Part shown: positions 7,235 through 37,682 of the stretch, in pieces | Numbering within the stretch: the stretch's first letter is position 1 | Layout of the letters: every line of letters starts with the position of its first letter | From: Streptomyces albireticuli | GTDB taxonomy: Bacteria; Actinomycetota; Actinomycetes; Streptomycetales; Streptomycetaceae | Assembly (NCBI RefSeq): GCF_002192455.1 | Contig: NZ_CP021744.1 | Coordinates: forward strand, 2,510,001-2,574,000 | Direction of reading: 5' to 3' | DNA length: 64,000 bases | Program-made: the position numbers and the translations under genes | The notes under the pieces: model-generated | What the model was told of the DNA's origin: nothing | Database searches by the model: none | Seen by the model: only the letters and a program-made list of their open reading frames with translations

Positions 7235-7522
7235 GTGGCCGAGGTCGTGGTCCAGCTTCGTACGCCGTCGCGCCCTCCCCCGGCCGACGGCGCGGCGCCC
7301 GGCGGCCCCGAGGGGGCCGGGGGCGGCGTCGACGGCTGTCTGCGACGGCGGTTCGGGCTGCTCTCGCGCCCCCTGCACCCCGGCGCGGACGACCCGGAGG
7401 CCCTCGCGTGGCGCACGGTCGACGTGCCCGCCGGGGTGGACGCCGAGTCGGTCGCCGAGGCACTGCGCGCCCGTCCGGACGTCGCGGCCGCCTATGTGAA
7501 ACCCCAGGCGGGCCCGCCGTGA
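7235..7522 (+). CDS. Small protein resembling the N-terminal region of the adjacent S8 peptidase
   Basis: 95 residues; GTG start with TCGGAGG 7 bases upstream. No signal peptide or membrane segment. The C-terminal third (DVPAGVDAESVAEALRARPD then VAAAYVKP) aligns by eye with residues ~120-145 of the following peptidase (VDAPADRLEELAERLRSSDA then VEAAYVKP). The preceding stretch (LRRRFGLLSRPL) also resembles LITPLFGVDRR there. This is a free-standing version of the peptidase's propeptide-like region, so a role as inhibitor, intramolecular-chaperone equivalent or partner is plausible but inferred. It is the first gene of a four-gene same-strand cluster; 33 bases separate it from the peptidase. 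Confidence 0.75.
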   Translation: MAEVVVQLRTPSRPPPADGAAPGGPEGAGGGVDGCLRRRFGLLSRPLHPGADDPEALAWRTVDVPAGVDAESVAEALRARPDVAAAYVKPQAGPP

Positions 7523-7555
7523 CGCGCCTTCCCTTCACGCGGTGAGGAGAGTGCC

Positions 7556-9472
7556 GTGCCCCAGCCCTCAGGTGCGGAGAATTCCGGCGGCTCGCCGCCA
7601 CCGCCCGAATCGCTCTTCGGGCGGCCCGAGTTGGTGTGTGTGACCCGCCCCGGCGCCGGGGTGCGGATCACCGCCACCGGCGCGACCGCGGACGCGGGCG
7701 TCGCGGTGGGCGCCCTCGACGCGGTCGCGGCCGAGTCCGACGTGCTGATCACGCCGCTCTTCGGCGTGGACCGGCGGGCGGCGCGCGCCTCCGCGGACGG
7801 CGGCGCGGACGGTCCGGCGGGGCCGGACGGAACGGTCGCGGCGGGCGGGCCCGCCGGCGACGACGCGGCCCGGTGGACCCTCGACACGATGGCGCGCTTC
7901 CACCACGTGGACGCCCCGGCGGACCGGCTGGAGGAGCTGGCCGAGCGGCTCCGCTCCTCGGACGCGGTCGAGGCCGCGTACGTCAAGCCCGGGGTGGACC
8001 TGGCGGTCCAGCGGACGGAGCGGAGGACGGTCCCCGCGCAGGCCGCGAAGACGGCGAAGAAGGCGGTGAAGAAGGCCGTACGGAAGCCCGGCGGCACGGC
8101 CGCCCGCCGGACCGGGGCCGACGGCGCCGAGGGGCCCGGCGCCCTCAACGCCATGGTCCCGGACACCGCCGACGCCCCGCCCGTCACCCCGGACTTCACC
8201 GCCCGCCAGGGCTATCTCGACGCCGCGCCGGGCGGGATCGACGCCCGCTACGCCTGGACGCTGCCGGGCGGCCGGGGCGCCGGCGTCCGGGTGATCGACT
8301 GCGAGTGGGGCTGGCGCTTCACCCACGAGGACCTGCTGCGGAACCAGGGCGGGATCGTCTCGGGCACCGGCAGCACGGACACCGGTTTCGTGAACCACGG
8401 CACCGCGGTGCTCGGGGAGATCGGCGGTGACGTCAACGCCTTCGGCGTCACCGGGATCTCCCCGGACGCGGTGACGAGCGCCTCGGCGTTCTCGATCCCT
8501 ACGGCGACCGCGATCCGCAACGCGGCCGACCGGCTCGGCCCGGGCGACATCATCCTGCTGGAGATCCACCGGCCGGGCCCCCGGGCCACGGGCGCCGGCC
8601 AGCAGGGCTTCATCGCCGTCGAGTGGTGGCCGGACGACTACCTGGCGATCCGGTACGCCGTCGACCGGGGCATCACGGTCGTCGAGGCCGCGGGCAACGG
8701 CGCGGAGAACCTGGACGACCCGGTCTACGACACCCCGCAGCCCGGCTTCCCCGCCTGGTGGCGCAACCCCTTCCGGCGTACCGCGCTGGACGCCGGCGCC
8801 GTGGTCGTCGGCGCGGGGGCGCCGCCGCCGGGGACCCACGGCGCGGACCACGGGCCGGACCGGTCCCGGCTCGACTTCTCCAACTTCGGGGCCTGCGTGG
8901 ACGCCCAGGGCTGGGGCCGCGAGGTGACCACCACCGGCTACGGCGACCTCCAGGGCGGCACCGGCCAGGATCTCTGGTACACCGACCGGTTCAGCGGCAC
9001 GTCCAGCGCCTCCCCCATCGTCGTGGGAGCCCTGGCGGCCACCCAGGGCGTGCTGCGGGCTAACGGCAGGATCCCGCTGTCGCCCGCGCGCTCACGGCAG
9101 TTGCTCCGGGCCACGGGCTCACCCCAGCAGGACGCCCCGGGCCGCCCGGCCACCCAGCGCATCGGTAACCGGCCCAACCTCCGGCAGCTGATCCCCGCGG
9201 CGCTCCAGACGGCCACCTGGGTGGGCGTGCAGTTCCGCGGCACCCTGGCCGGCGGCCGCACCGGGCGCTGGTTCACGCACAGCTGGCCGGCCCACTGGCA
9301 CGTGGTGTGGACGGTCGTGCCGACCAGCCCGCGCCCCGGCGCCCCGCAGGTCCGCTGGAAGGTACGGGTCGAGCGGGCGAGCGACGGCTTCGCGACGTAC
9401 TGGATCGACGTGACCAACCTCGTGACCGACCCGGTCGACTTCGAGGCCCGGTTCGCGGTCCTCGGCTGGTGA
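7556..9472 (+). CDS. S8 (subtilisin-like) serine peptidase with atypical Asp motif and C-terminal accessory domain
   Basis: 638 residues, GTG start preceded by GGTGAGGAGA. Residues ~20-150 form a propeptide-like region similar to the upstream small protein. A Lys/Ala-rich linker follows (TAKKAVKKAVRKPGG, ~160-185), then the peptidase domain. Catalytic residues by motif are D248 (VIDCEWGW, where the usual Asp-Ser/Thr-Gly is replaced), H281 (NHGTAVLGEIGG), oxyanion N381 (AAGNG) and S483 (SGTSSASP). Residues ~551-638 are a separate domain almost duplicated by the next gene (RWFTHSWP, PTSP.PGAPQ, FAVL motifs). I see no Sec or Tat signal, so it may act inside the cell or leave by another route. 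Substrate unknown. Confidence 0.9.
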   Translation: MPQPSGAENSGGSPPPPESLFGRPELVCVTRPGAGVRITATGATADAGVAVGALDAVAAESDVLITPLFGVDRRAARASADGGADGPAGPDGTVAAGGPAGDDAARWTLDTMARFHHVDAPADRLEELAERLRSSDAVEAAYVKPGVDLAVQRTERRTVPAQAAKTAKKAVKKAVRKPGGTAARRTGADGAEGPGALNAMVPDTADAPPVTPDFTARQGYLDAAPGGIDARYAWTLPGGRGAGVRVIDCEWGWRFTHEDLLRNQGGIVSGTGSTDTGFVNHGTAVLGEIGGDVNAFGVTGISPDAVTSASAFSIPTATAIRNAADRLGPGDIILLEIHRPGPRATGAGQQGFIAVEWWPDDYLAIRYAVDRGITVVEAAGNGAENLDDPVYDTPQPGFPAWWRNPFRRTALDAGAVVVGAGAPPPGTHGADHGPDRSRLDFSNFGACVDAQGWGREVTTTGYGDLQGGTGQDLWYTDRFSGTSSASPIVVGALAATQGVLRANGRIPLSPARSRQLLRATGSPQQDAPGRPATQRIGNRPNLRQLIPAALQTATWVGVQFRGTLAGGRTGRWFTHSWPAHWHVVWTVVPTSPRPGAPQVRWKVRVERASDGFATYWIDVTNLVTDPVDFEARFAVLGW

Positions 9473-9484
9473 GAGGAGACAGGC

Positions 9485-9739
9485 ATGCGCGTAGGCACGC
9501 AGTTCACCGGAACCCTGGCCCCGGGCCAGACCGGCCGCTGGTTCACCCACAGCTGGCCGCAGGAATGGCACGTCATCTGGTACTTCATGCCCACGAGCCC
9601 GCAGCCGGGGGCACCGCAGCTCGAATGGGAGACCCAGGTCGAGCGGGCCTCGGGGACGCATGTGACGTACTGGCTGACGGTACGCAACCTGAGCAGCGCC
9701 CAGTTGCAGTTCGAAGGCCGCTTCGCGGTCCTCAATTAG
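9485..9739 (+). CDS. Free-standing copy of the S8 peptidase C-terminal domain
   Basis: 84 residues, ATG 9485 with GAGAGGAGAC just upstream and only 12 bases after the peptidase stop. By hand alignment about 50 of 83 positions are identical to the last domain of the peptidase, including GRWFTHSWP, PTSP-PGAPQ, VERAS, TYW and RFAVL. No signal peptide. Aromatic-rich alternating pattern suggests a small beta-sandwich. It could be a subunit that binds the same ligand as the peptidase tail or a regulator competing with it; both are inference. Confidence 0.8.
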   Translation: MRVGTQFTGTLAPGQTGRWFTHSWPQEWHVIWYFMPTSPQPGAPQLEWETQVERASGTHVTYWLTVRNLSSAQLQFEGRFAVLN

Positions 9740-9749
9740 GGAGTCGGGC

Positions 9750-10013
9750 ATGAAGGTCACGATCACGGTCGCGGACGGCGAGGCGGCGGTCGCGGTCACG
9801 GCCCCCACCGGGGCCGGACCGGACCCGGTGCCGGACGGGGACGCGGGGACACCGGCCGGCGGCACACCGGCGGACCCGGGCGCGGCGGTCGACGGCGGGG
9901 GGCCGCCGGAATGGCTGACGGAGGCGGTGGGGCTCGCACGGGCGCGCGGCACGGCGGAAGGGGACGACGGGACGGCGGCGCGGGACGCGGGCGGGGCGGC
10001 GGTGGGGGGCTGA
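9750..10013 (+). CDS. Small acidic, Gly/Pro/Ala-rich protein of unknown function
   Basis: 87 residues. ATG 9750 follows the preceding stop by 10 bases with GGGAGTCGGGC as ribosome site. It begins with a short beta-like segment (MKVTITVADGEAAVAVTAP), then a disordered Pro/Gly/Asp linker, a short helix (EWLTEAVGLARARG) and a Gly/Ala tail. No family recognised. Position as last gene of the peptidase cluster suggests a shared role. A hairpin at 10083-10113 follows. Confidence 0.6.
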   Translation: MKVTITVADGEAAVAVTAPTGAGPDPVPDGDAGTPAGGTPADPGAAVDGGGPPEWLTEAVGLARARGTAEGDDGTAARDAGGAAVGG

Positions 10014-36401: not shown

Positions 36402-37259
36402 CTACACGTCGGTGTCGTACTTGTAGAACTTCTTGTGGTCGATGAGGTCGGCCGGGACGACCCGCTTGCCCTGCTCGATCCACGGCTTCATCGGCTGGTT
36501 CAGGGCGACGATGTCCTTGACCGGCTCGACCGGCAGGTACGCGGGCACCTTCGGGTGGCGCTTCTGCCAGTCCGCCCACAGCTTGTCGATGAAGCAGTGG
36601 AGCAGCCAGAAGACGGGGTCGTTGGGCGACATCCCCGTGTTCATGTGGCCGCCGATCCAGCGGTGGACGGCGTTGTGCGGGCCGGTGTTGCCGTTGGCCC
36701 AGCCCTCGACGAGGTTACGGAAACCGGCCTTGGAGGTGGAGTTCCAGGGCGCCTCGTCGTAGTACGGGGCGGCCAGCGCGGCCTCGACCGTGGCGGCCGT
36801 GGGCAGCTGCGGCGTCCCCTTGTTCTTGCCGATCTCGCGCATCAGGAAGGGGCGCTCGTCGGCCTTGAAGTAGATCGGCCAGCGGCCGCCGCTGTAGGCG
36901 AACGGACCGTCCATGACCTGGGCGTCCCGCTCCCGGCCGGTGCCGCCCAGGAAGTCGGGGGCGAAGATCGGGTCGGACAGCGAGCGGTTGACCGTGAAGT
37001 CCCAGTACGGCAGCGTGACCGCCGGGTTGACGGACTGGAGGTCCCGCTCGAAGTCGAGCAGGAACTGGCGGTGCCAGGGGAGGAACGACGGGGAGACGTG
37101 GCCCGTGCGCTCCTGGTCGTCCAGGTCGCTCATCACGAAGCGGTCGTGGATCTCGACGTACTTGTCGTAACCGCCGCGGCGCTTGAGCTCCAGCAGGGCC
37201 TCGACGAAGTCGCGCCGCTCGGCCTTGCTCAGCTTTGCCTGGTTCTTGCGAACTGCCAT
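36402..37259 (-). CDS. melC2: Tyrosinase (type-3 copper), MelC2 type
   Basis: 285 residues. Oxidises tyrosine and DOPA to quinones in melanin formation. Copper ligands are visible: CuA H38 (VEIHDR), H54 (TGHVSP), H63 (PWHRQF), and CuB H195, H199 (GPHNAVHRW) and H221 (LLHCFIDKLW). It has no signal peptide and is exported with the twin-arginine caddie protein encoded just upstream, as established for MelC. It is slightly longer than the ~273-residue MelC2 proteins, with a Lys-rich C-terminal end, and could be the second tyrosinase type seen in some species. Confidence 0.93.
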   Translation of the reverse strand: MAVRKNQAKLSKAERRDFVEALLELKRRGGYDKYVEIHDRFVMSDLDDQERTGHVSPSFLPWHRQFLLDFERDLQSVNPAVTLPYWDFTVNRSLSDPIFAPDFLGGTGRERDAQVMDGPFAYSGGRWPIYFKADERPFLMREIGKNKGTPQLPTAATVEAALAAPYYDEAPWNSTSKAGFRNLVEGWANGNTGPHNAVHRWIGGHMNTGMSPNDPVFWLLHCFIDKLWADWQKRHPKVPAYLPVEPVKDIVALNQPMKPWIEQGKRVVPADLIDHKKFYKYDTDV

Positions 37260-37301
37260 AAAAATTCAGACCTTTACCGTGTCACGAACGAAGGGACGAG
37301 C

Positions 37302-37682
37302 TCAGACGAGGTTGACGCCACGCAGCGCGCGCACGGCGGCGCGCGTCACCTCGTACGGCGAGTCGAAGACCTCGTAGTGGTTCATGACGCTGATCCAGCC
37401 GTTGCCGCGCGGCATGATGTGCAGCGGGCGCCCGTCGACGAACACGGCGATGCCGAAGTCGTGGTGGCCGCCGCCGGCGGTGAGCCGGCCCTCGATGCGA
37501 CGGCCCTCGTAGACCTCGTCGAACGGCTGGTGGCCGCCACCGGTGTGGTGGTCGTGCTCGTGCCCGGCGGCGGACGTGGCGCCGTCCGCGGCCATGGCCT
37601 GCGCGGCCGGTGCCACCAGTGCGAATCCTGCGGCCACCGCGGCCGTACGGCCCAGCATGCGGCGGCGGGTGAGGTCGGACAC
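37302..37682 (-). CDS. melC1: Tyrosinase caddie/copper chaperone, MelC1 type
   Basis: 126 residues from GTG 37682, favoured because AGGGGG lies 7 bases upstream; an in-frame GTG at 37703 would add seven residues. Tat signal (LTRRRMLGRTAAVAAGFALV). The mature part is His-rich (GHEHDHHTGGGH), then the conserved FDEVYEGRRIEG, HDFGIAVFVDGRPLH and ISVMNHYEVFDSPYEVTRAA. It inserts copper into and co-exports the tyrosinase. First gene of the operon, 42 bases before melC2. Confidence 0.92.
   Translation of the reverse strand: MSDLTRRRMLGRTAAVAAGFALVAPAAQAMAADGATSAAGHEHDHHTGGGHQPFDEVYEGRRIEGRLTAGGGHHDFGIAVFVDGRPLHIMPRGNGWISVMNHYEVFDSPYEVTRAAVRALRGVNLV

Follow-up and report, generated by a model that had tools for sequence, protein, structure and literature searches.

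Why should a peptidase gene stand between free copies of its own two ends? This question is raised by a four-gene unit in Streptomyces albireticuli (assembly GCF_002192455.1), whose 8.14 Mb chromosome includes the window analysed here, a stretch of 64,000 nucleotides (nt) at positions 2,510,001-2,574,000 of the forward strand of NZ_CP021744.1. Positions of the parts of the unit are given in window coordinates, position 1 being the first letter of the stretch. The genes follow one another on the plus strand in the order g1, S8 peptidase, free domain and g4, with gaps of 33, 12 and 10 nt, as had been read correctly in an earlier note on this DNA. We call the C-terminal domain of the peptidase dom, its fused copy F and its free copy S. 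Our answer, which we hold tentatively and as somewhat less than an even prospect, is that these sequences represent one member of a widespread modular enzyme complex, in which S would be a paired subunit, g4 a tether and g1 an inhibitor or chaperone specific to the S8 version.

How similar are the free copies to the ends of the peptidase? The S gene (9485..9739, +) encodes 84 amino acids (aa), and its product is about 62-63% identical to the peptidase C-terminus (62.2% over 82 residues; blastp E about 1e-33, with a small set of neighbour proteins as database), in agreement with the 50 of 83 positions that the note had counted by hand. The fused copy F occupies residues 556-638 of the peptidase (9221..9469, +), and a search with the free copy found only S and F in the own genome. 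The other end of the peptidase is represented by g1 (7235..7522, +; 95 aa, ending AAYVKPQAGPP), a free-standing propeptide-like copy of the peptidase N-domain (residues about 25-145; 7628..7990, +), which was delimited with the structure model, the g1 profile and hhalign. The resemblance of g1 to this propeptide-like region, noted earlier, is a homology that extends beyond the shared end motif, with an hhalign probability of 98.8 over 67 columns (15 g1 sequences against 40 N-domains). The idea that detached copies of both end domains are kept as a unit was thus borne out. In a second genome of the genus (L016) the four genes have identical order, the small ones having been read there by eye.

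These copies might be functionless leftovers of tandem duplications of the peptidase ends, since they are adjacent to it and g1 and g4 evolve fast. The ratios of nonsynonymous to synonymous substitution rates (dN/dS) between the window and the related Streptomyces locus L036 were 0.61 (g1), 0.25 (peptidase), 0.24 (free dom) and 0.65 (g4), values that fit translated genes; against the nearest relatives, L034 and L035, g1 had about 1.26 (with few changes there) and g4 had 0.76 and 0.83. However, S is under strong purifying selection, with dN/dS of 0.06-0.30 in four pairs, it is present in loci assigned to ten phyla, and S and F mostly form separate lineages. We consider leftover duplications extremely improbable.

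It is useful to trace the arrangement beyond Streptomyces. Scanning a single genome from each species, we obtained 99 relatives, of which the best 80, ranked by similarity to the free dom, form our locus set. In all 80 a fused dom lies at or near the end of a longer open reading frame (ORF), those of L039 and L090 being cut by the contig end. In 70 of the 80, S is located downstream of F on the same strand; it starts 9 to 402 nt past the F stop, and in 49 of these 70 loci the distance is less than 60 nt. The proteins that carry F comprise 43 of the main S8 class, assigned by similarity to the window peptidase, and, by names taken from Pfam and NCBIfam matches of representatives (12 different fused proteins scanned, from the loci outside the main S8 class plus L041 within it), 16 Vps10/BNR propellers, 7 LegP-like astacins, 5 protein-glutaminases, 3 M64 peptidases, 3 of unknown kind and three singletons, namely another S8, a BNR protein and the truncated L039. 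These classes had no mutual matches in clustering. The three proteins of the unknown class (L089, L095 and L102) have in common the motif IYWG.AW near the N-terminal end, and L089, the one scanned, matched no Pfam or NCBIfam family. Among the upstream genes of the non-S8 classes we detected no class-specific partner beyond sequence conserved among close relatives.

By host label, 77 loci are bacterial and 3 archaeal, and ten phyla are represented: Actinomycetota (36 loci), Pseudomonadota (15), Bacteroidota (13), Chloroflexota (5), Methanobacteriota (3), Acidobacteriota (3), Thermodesulfobacteriota (2), and Cyanobacteriota, Thermomicrobiota and Armatimonadota with one each. In Haloferax mediterranei the pair is annotated as "S8 family peptidase" and "hypothetical protein" in the plasmid table derived from RefSeq. 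The free domain had been taken for a copy specific to the peptidase, and this part of the earlier note did not hold: the free dom also accompanies propellers, protein-glutaminases and other peptidase families, and hence was not made as a copy for a single peptidase.

If S were simply a detached duplicate of F, then we can ask: Do the two copies of each locus group together? In a tree of 155 dom copies the labels S and F require 6 changes (5 of them forced by starred branches) against a mean of about 52 after shuffling, and none of 500 shuffles was as low as the observed value. By this tree S and F are mostly separate lineages. They differ at positions 27, 33, 47, 67 and 84. Histidine 27 is typical of F in the main S8 and astacin classes (49 of 52 copies), and none of the 72 S copies has it. 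Position 33 is T in 69 of 83 F copies and Y or N in 52 of 72 S copies, position 47 is acidic in 66 of 72 S copies, position 67 is R or K in 61 of 72 S copies and T in 49 of 83 F copies, and position 84 is N in 59 of 72 S copies and G or S in 72 of 83 F copies. The charge of strand 4 (positions 47, 49 and 51) has a mean of -1.67 in S and +0.64 in F; compared pair by pair, with kinship uncorrected, it is lower in S in 56 of 72 pairs, higher in 10 and equal in 6.

These data bear on the role of the free copy, for which the earlier note had left two choices, ligand-binding competitor or subunit. In the former case, extended here to every enzyme class, S would be an antagonist: by competing for the ligand or docking site that F uses, it would hold the enzyme away from its target, with g1 closing the active site. 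The two copies could have one ligand in common, given the residues that are nearly invariant in S and F alike (Q6, W24, W32, R54, Y62, N68 and R79), and the S gene follows closely behind, as the 49 short distances indicate. But the distinct signatures of S and F in most classes would be needless for a plain mimic, and at ten S8 loci (L078 and nine of the main class) no S adjoins F. We therefore find an antagonist rather unlikely. A paired subunit fits better with the residue signature that S has of its own, and a simple competitor for a ligand fits less well.

The fourth gene of the window, g4 (9750..10013, +), was recognised as a conserved downstream ORF and by alignment. It encodes a small, disordered-looking, low-complexity protein of 87 aa that starts MKVTITV and contains three motifs. 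The first DAG-type motif, DAGTPA (9840..9857, +), was placed by alignment position, and its last residue departs from the strict pattern; the helix-type motif DGGGPPEWLTEAV (9891..9929, +) belongs to a type that the motif counts found only beside S8 enzymes; the C-terminal DAG motif, DAGGAA (9984..10001, +), assigned in the same counts, is also off the strict pattern. Across the locus set the g4 site follows S, or follows F in loci that have no S, and holds an ORF of 48-215 aa, mostly with a start like MRIxIEID and with one to four DAG-type motifs of the form [DNS][AG]G.[AP][PS]. The overall pattern MRIxIE...DAGxPPxWL...DAGxAP is present in every class except the astacins.

How specific are these motifs to the cassette? 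A single fixed procedure, applied to targets and controls alike, yielded one motif or more at 68 of the 80 target ends against 10 of the 442 control gene ends, and the start pattern together with a motif at 56 of 80 target ends and 0 of 442 controls. The 71 g4 proteins, from the loci with a recognised g4 (ten left out) and from the window, contain 118 motifs in total against a shuffle mean of 2.4. The C-terminal DAG motif occurs in 51 of 60 g4 proteins from S-bearing loci and in 2 of 8 from S-less loci, a count that overstates independence because the S-less loci are partly one clade. The helix motif DAGxPPxWLxxAI occurs in 27 of 42 g4 proteins of S8 loci (L039, with its enzyme cut off, included) and in 0 of 26 others. 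Twelve of the 80 loci were left out of both counts: the 7 astacin loci, L050, L054 and L112 with no recognised g4, L070 with undetermined bases and L092 cut by the contig end. The two correlations between motif and partner suggest a motif code, and on this pattern g4 is a real third component of the cassette, in line with the fourth small partner proposed earlier. In four of the seven astacin loci (L106, L108, L110 and L111) the g4 site downstream of S is occupied by another, similar-looking ORF, and that of L108, the one scanned, matched YscW just over the cut-off (24.2 against 22.6 bits). Among 61 relatives searched for g4 elsewhere only the window's own locus gave a clear match (2.8e-10); matches in 16 other genomes (E 8e-4 to 0.09) were taken as low-complexity chance and were not looked at singly.

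A short, repetitive, low-complexity protein encoded downstream of a protease also recalls a precursor peptide, so g4 might be the product or substrate that the peptidase processes, with the rest of the unit as processing helpers. Similar g4 proteins are, however, encoded beside propellers and protein-glutaminases, which are not peptidases, and no NCBIfam precursor family was found in the ten g4 proteins or g4-site ORFs scanned. This makes a precursor role very unlikely in our view.

The peptidase itself (7556..9472, +) has 638 aa and, by hydropathy, no Sec signal. Its match to PF00082 (E 2.4e-8; 34.1 bits against a cut-off of 21.8) is the sole Pfam family match among the four window proteins, and its model has the subtilase fold. 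Among 51 aligned sequences, the window included, the catalytic and oxyanion residues are kept: D248 in 50, and H281, N381 and S483 each in all 51. By alignment the catalytic residues of the window peptidase are intact.

The distribution of g1 differs from that of the other small genes. The g1 profile, built from 15 sequences (the window and 14 searched loci), matches the fused ORF in 42 of the 43 S8-class loci at E up to 0.01, the exception being L090 with its ORF cut by the contig end. A free g1 is present in 33 of these 43 loci. It lies upstream on the same strand in 32 of them, whereas that of L079 is downstream and opposite in orientation. None of the 37 non-S8 loci has a free g1; two of these, L039 and L085, have no sequence upstream of the enzyme ORF. 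The g1 homologue of L079 lies at 8568-8882 (-) of that locus. It follows from this confinement to S8 loci that g1 goes with the catalytic domain, whereas S and g4 go with dom. Subtilisin propeptides act as chaperones and inhibitors, as the note had stated. A parallel for a free-standing form is SUB1-ProM, a stand-alone subtilisin propeptide-like protein encoded beside the subtilase genes of Plasmodium, one of which it inhibits according to the abstract (PMC6993865). Because g1 occurs only with the S8 module and has this precedent, a role as inhibitor or chaperone of the S8 peptidase is plausible by analogy.

Is dom a known domain in other guise? The AlphaFold2 (AF2) model of S, with a mean predicted local distance difference test (pLDDT) score of 96.8 and a predicted template modelling (pTM) score of 0.83, is a six-stranded beta-sandwich, and F has six beta strands in the peptidase model. 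The folds predicted were those of dom and of the peptidase, with the N-domain modelled as part of the latter. The nearest solved folds are GOLD, the C-terminal domain of the subtilase Tk-SP and the collagen-binding and PPC domains of collagenases, all with Z below 8: the best Foldseek E was 0.056, VIA-align Z reached 7.8, and the PPC/jelly-roll C-terminal domains gave at best Z 7.8. As these scores are middling, we claim no family. Pfam has no family for dom; its scan of 70 free copies returned scattered weak matches (best E 0.01, in one member), and a profile search of solved structures by sequence gave nothing useful. For the window g1 no described propeptide family was found in Pfam, and two other g1 proteins scanned matched only weak models (ACT, GYD) below the cut-off. 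The NCBIfam scan of the window proteins gave nothing above cut-offs, and PADLOC gave 0 families for nine proteins scanned. The domain is also rare, being present in 4 of 295 genomes of the genus and in 4 of 396 in the phylum sample, with the own genome counted in both.

How might these parts work together? In the paired-subunit reading, which we prefer, the constant parts would be F on a larger protein (mostly an enzyme), usually S from the next gene, and g4 with its beta-strand-like start, and the catalytic part would be interchangeable. Such interchange suggests that the action of dom, S and g4 is not aimed at any one active site. S and F would pair as unequal subunits, because they have distinct conserved signatures and opposite charge on strand 4. 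As each g4 motif goes with a particular partner, g4 could be a multivalent tether, its C-terminal DAG motif binding S and the DAGxPPxWLxxAI helix binding the S8 enzyme. In the S8 version only, g1 would be an additional propeptide supplied in trans to the catalytic domain, serving as inhibitor or folding helper, and its YVKPP tail may enter the active-site cleft, as homology and precedent indicate. Hydropathy gave no plausible Sec signal in 77 enzyme N-termini, the three flagged windows beginning at internal start codons of the glutaminase class; the complex would thus reside inside the cell or be exported by a non-Sec route.

The same lack of Sec signals would suit a kit of delivered effectors or toxins, with dom as the carrier or cell-binding part, S as extra binding subunits and the enzymes as payloads, injected or released by lysis. 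The payload-like diversity of the enzymes, LegP-like astacin and protein-glutaminase included, favours such a kit, as do the fold neighbours of dom, among which are carbohydrate- and collagen-binding and toxin domains, all with middling Z, and two genes in the own genome for Pvc16, a marker of contractile injection systems. The genus control, however, fails: Pvc16 was found in 24 of 56 dom genomes (23 of 55 once G339 and the L084 genome, which are the same, are counted once) against 127 of 199 genomes of the same genus. There was also no match in phages or viral contigs and none in PADLOC, and clustering of neighbour ORFs of at least 60 aa gave no further family spread over all classes. We judge delivery of this kind unlikely. 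A link to contractile injection systems as such had been considered on the Pvc16 counts, with 16 of 198 genomes over the cut-off in the phylum sample, but the 127 of 199 in Streptomyces left it confounded, and it was dropped. The own genome has two sheath-family genes as well, and its two Pvc16 genes (506359-506910 and 7779577-7780104 of the genome) are far from the cassette. An origin from phage, plasmid or virus was likewise rejected, with no phage match, no viral relative and one archaeal plasmid.

Several observations weigh against the modular complex with paired S and F. Ranking by similarity to S favours S-bearing loci. The linked free copy in 70 of 80 loci, which speaks against the absence or unlinking in relatives that by the earlier note would refute its reading, comes from such a sample; in whole-genome searches S was found in 4 of seven distinct genomes, the other three being F-only. 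A g4-like ORF follows F by eye in 2 of these three, and the F-only genome G594 (L123) has no separate g4. S is not next to F in 10 of the 80 loci (nine of the main S8 class and L078; no search was made elsewhere in those genomes), and thus it would not be needed there. S and F are not two clean clades: in L053 and Haloferax each S copy groups with the F of its locus, and the astacin pairs share a subtree with six Bacteroidota S8 pairs, which indicates local re-duplication or gene conversion. In the astacin class the contrast in charge runs the opposite way, in the unknown class it is weak, and the p value attached to it takes no account of kinship. The patterns for the g4 motifs come from the very sequences in which they were then counted, and no g4 was recognised in L112, in two of the three M64 loci or in any of the 7 astacin loci. 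Finally, 30 of the 80 records are metagenome-assembled by their titles, therefore some phylum labels may be wrong; the isolates alone represent five phyla, including the archaeal Haloferax.

What do relatives of the peptidase carry when dom is absent? Of 101 genomes in the genus, 16 (among them the own genome) have matches to the peptidase at E 1e-20 or better, and in the other 15 loci (L019-L033) this protein has no dom. At the C-terminus the dom-less peptidases have a different domain (RYWDELLPYP...WRNLNNP...), and the gene that follows encodes a protein with a Q-rich first half and a second copy of this RYWDELLPYP domain at its end. In the 11 of 15 loci where our script recognised the peptidase, the two copies are 33-39% identical, with blastp E values as low as 6e-12 (the database being very small) and an hhalign probability of 97.2. 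By the gene table L029 and L031 also have the Q-rich neighbour, and L023 and L033 are without it. The domain copied at the end of the downstream Q-rich gene was seen at L019:5839-8348 and in twelve like loci among L020-L032 (not L023). Compared with dom by hhalign, the RYWDELLPYP domain gave a probability of 0.6 and so shows no similarity, and neither Pfam nor NCBIfam has a model that names it. No free g1 was found in the dom-less loci; the g1 profile matches one long ORF (600-1030 residues) in each, which is taken to be the peptidase. Judged from their sequences, these loci are a separate case, in which a C-terminal domain is copied in the neighbour gene and joined there to its own low-complexity stretch.

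Elsewhere in the window, at 36402-37616 (-), a tyrosinase-like gene with an adjoining small helper-like gene was noticed by eye.

Has such a layout been described before? Our literature searches, with most subscription papers outside their reach, found no description of it. The nearest published idea found is that of the effector-associated domains (EADs) of prokaryotic conflict systems, small non-enzymatic domains present as two copies in neighbouring genes and fused to varied enzymes, for which coupling of like with like has been proposed (PMC7159879, Kaur et al. 2020). As with EADs, a small domain is copied in adjacent genes, one copy being on an enzyme, in 70 of our 80 loci. EADs are described there as mostly alpha-helical, whereas dom is a beta-sandwich; one EAD copy is given as always fused to a core component of a conflict system, whereas the second dom is free, about 82-87 aa long and without a PADLOC match; and, unlike EADs as presented there, neighbouring dom copies are mostly not nearest relatives, with L053 and Haloferax as exceptions (PMC7159879). 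By two of the features tested the cassette falls outside the EADs. SUB1-ProM, also a free propeptide-like protein next to subtilase genes, is a precedent for g1, but it belongs to a eukaryotic parasite and its parasitophorous vacuole, and the abstract names no free C-terminal domain or motif protein (PMC6993865). The marker domain of RIX effectors resembles dom as one small domain common to many effectors, but it is reported to mark type VI secretion cargo, and dom has no shown link to secretion (PMC10435454). Tk-SP of Thermococcus kodakarensis (3afg, 9ues) is likewise a subtilase with a propeptide; its C-terminal beta-sandwich is similar to dom (Z 7.5-7.7) and also came up in the Foldseek search. 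A likeness with Z below 8 may mean a common fold only. We know of no free second copy of the beta domain of Tk-SP. The cassette thus appears to be undescribed, and its working principle may prove close to that of EADs.

Taken with the second Streptomyces domain, the data may point to an unnamed class of adaptor-paired enzyme complexes in bacteria and archaea, each with an exchangeable enzyme, two unequal domain copies and a disordered tether that reads both adaptor and enzyme type; Streptomyces would have evolved this logic once more, around a dissimilar adaptor domain whose second copy carries a Q-rich tether of its own. We regard the chances of this as little short of evenly balanced. If it is true, S8 peptidases, astacins, M64 proteins, protein-glutaminases, propellers and proteins of unknown type would share one kit for assembly and control, unnamed in the libraries used, and there would be a rule for which g4 motif binds which partner. 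An ordinary-looking annotation such as that of the Haloferax mediterranei pair would then become a defined system. The second Streptomyces adaptor suggests that the design may be a general one, in which an adaptor is copied in the next gene and attached to a disordered tether.

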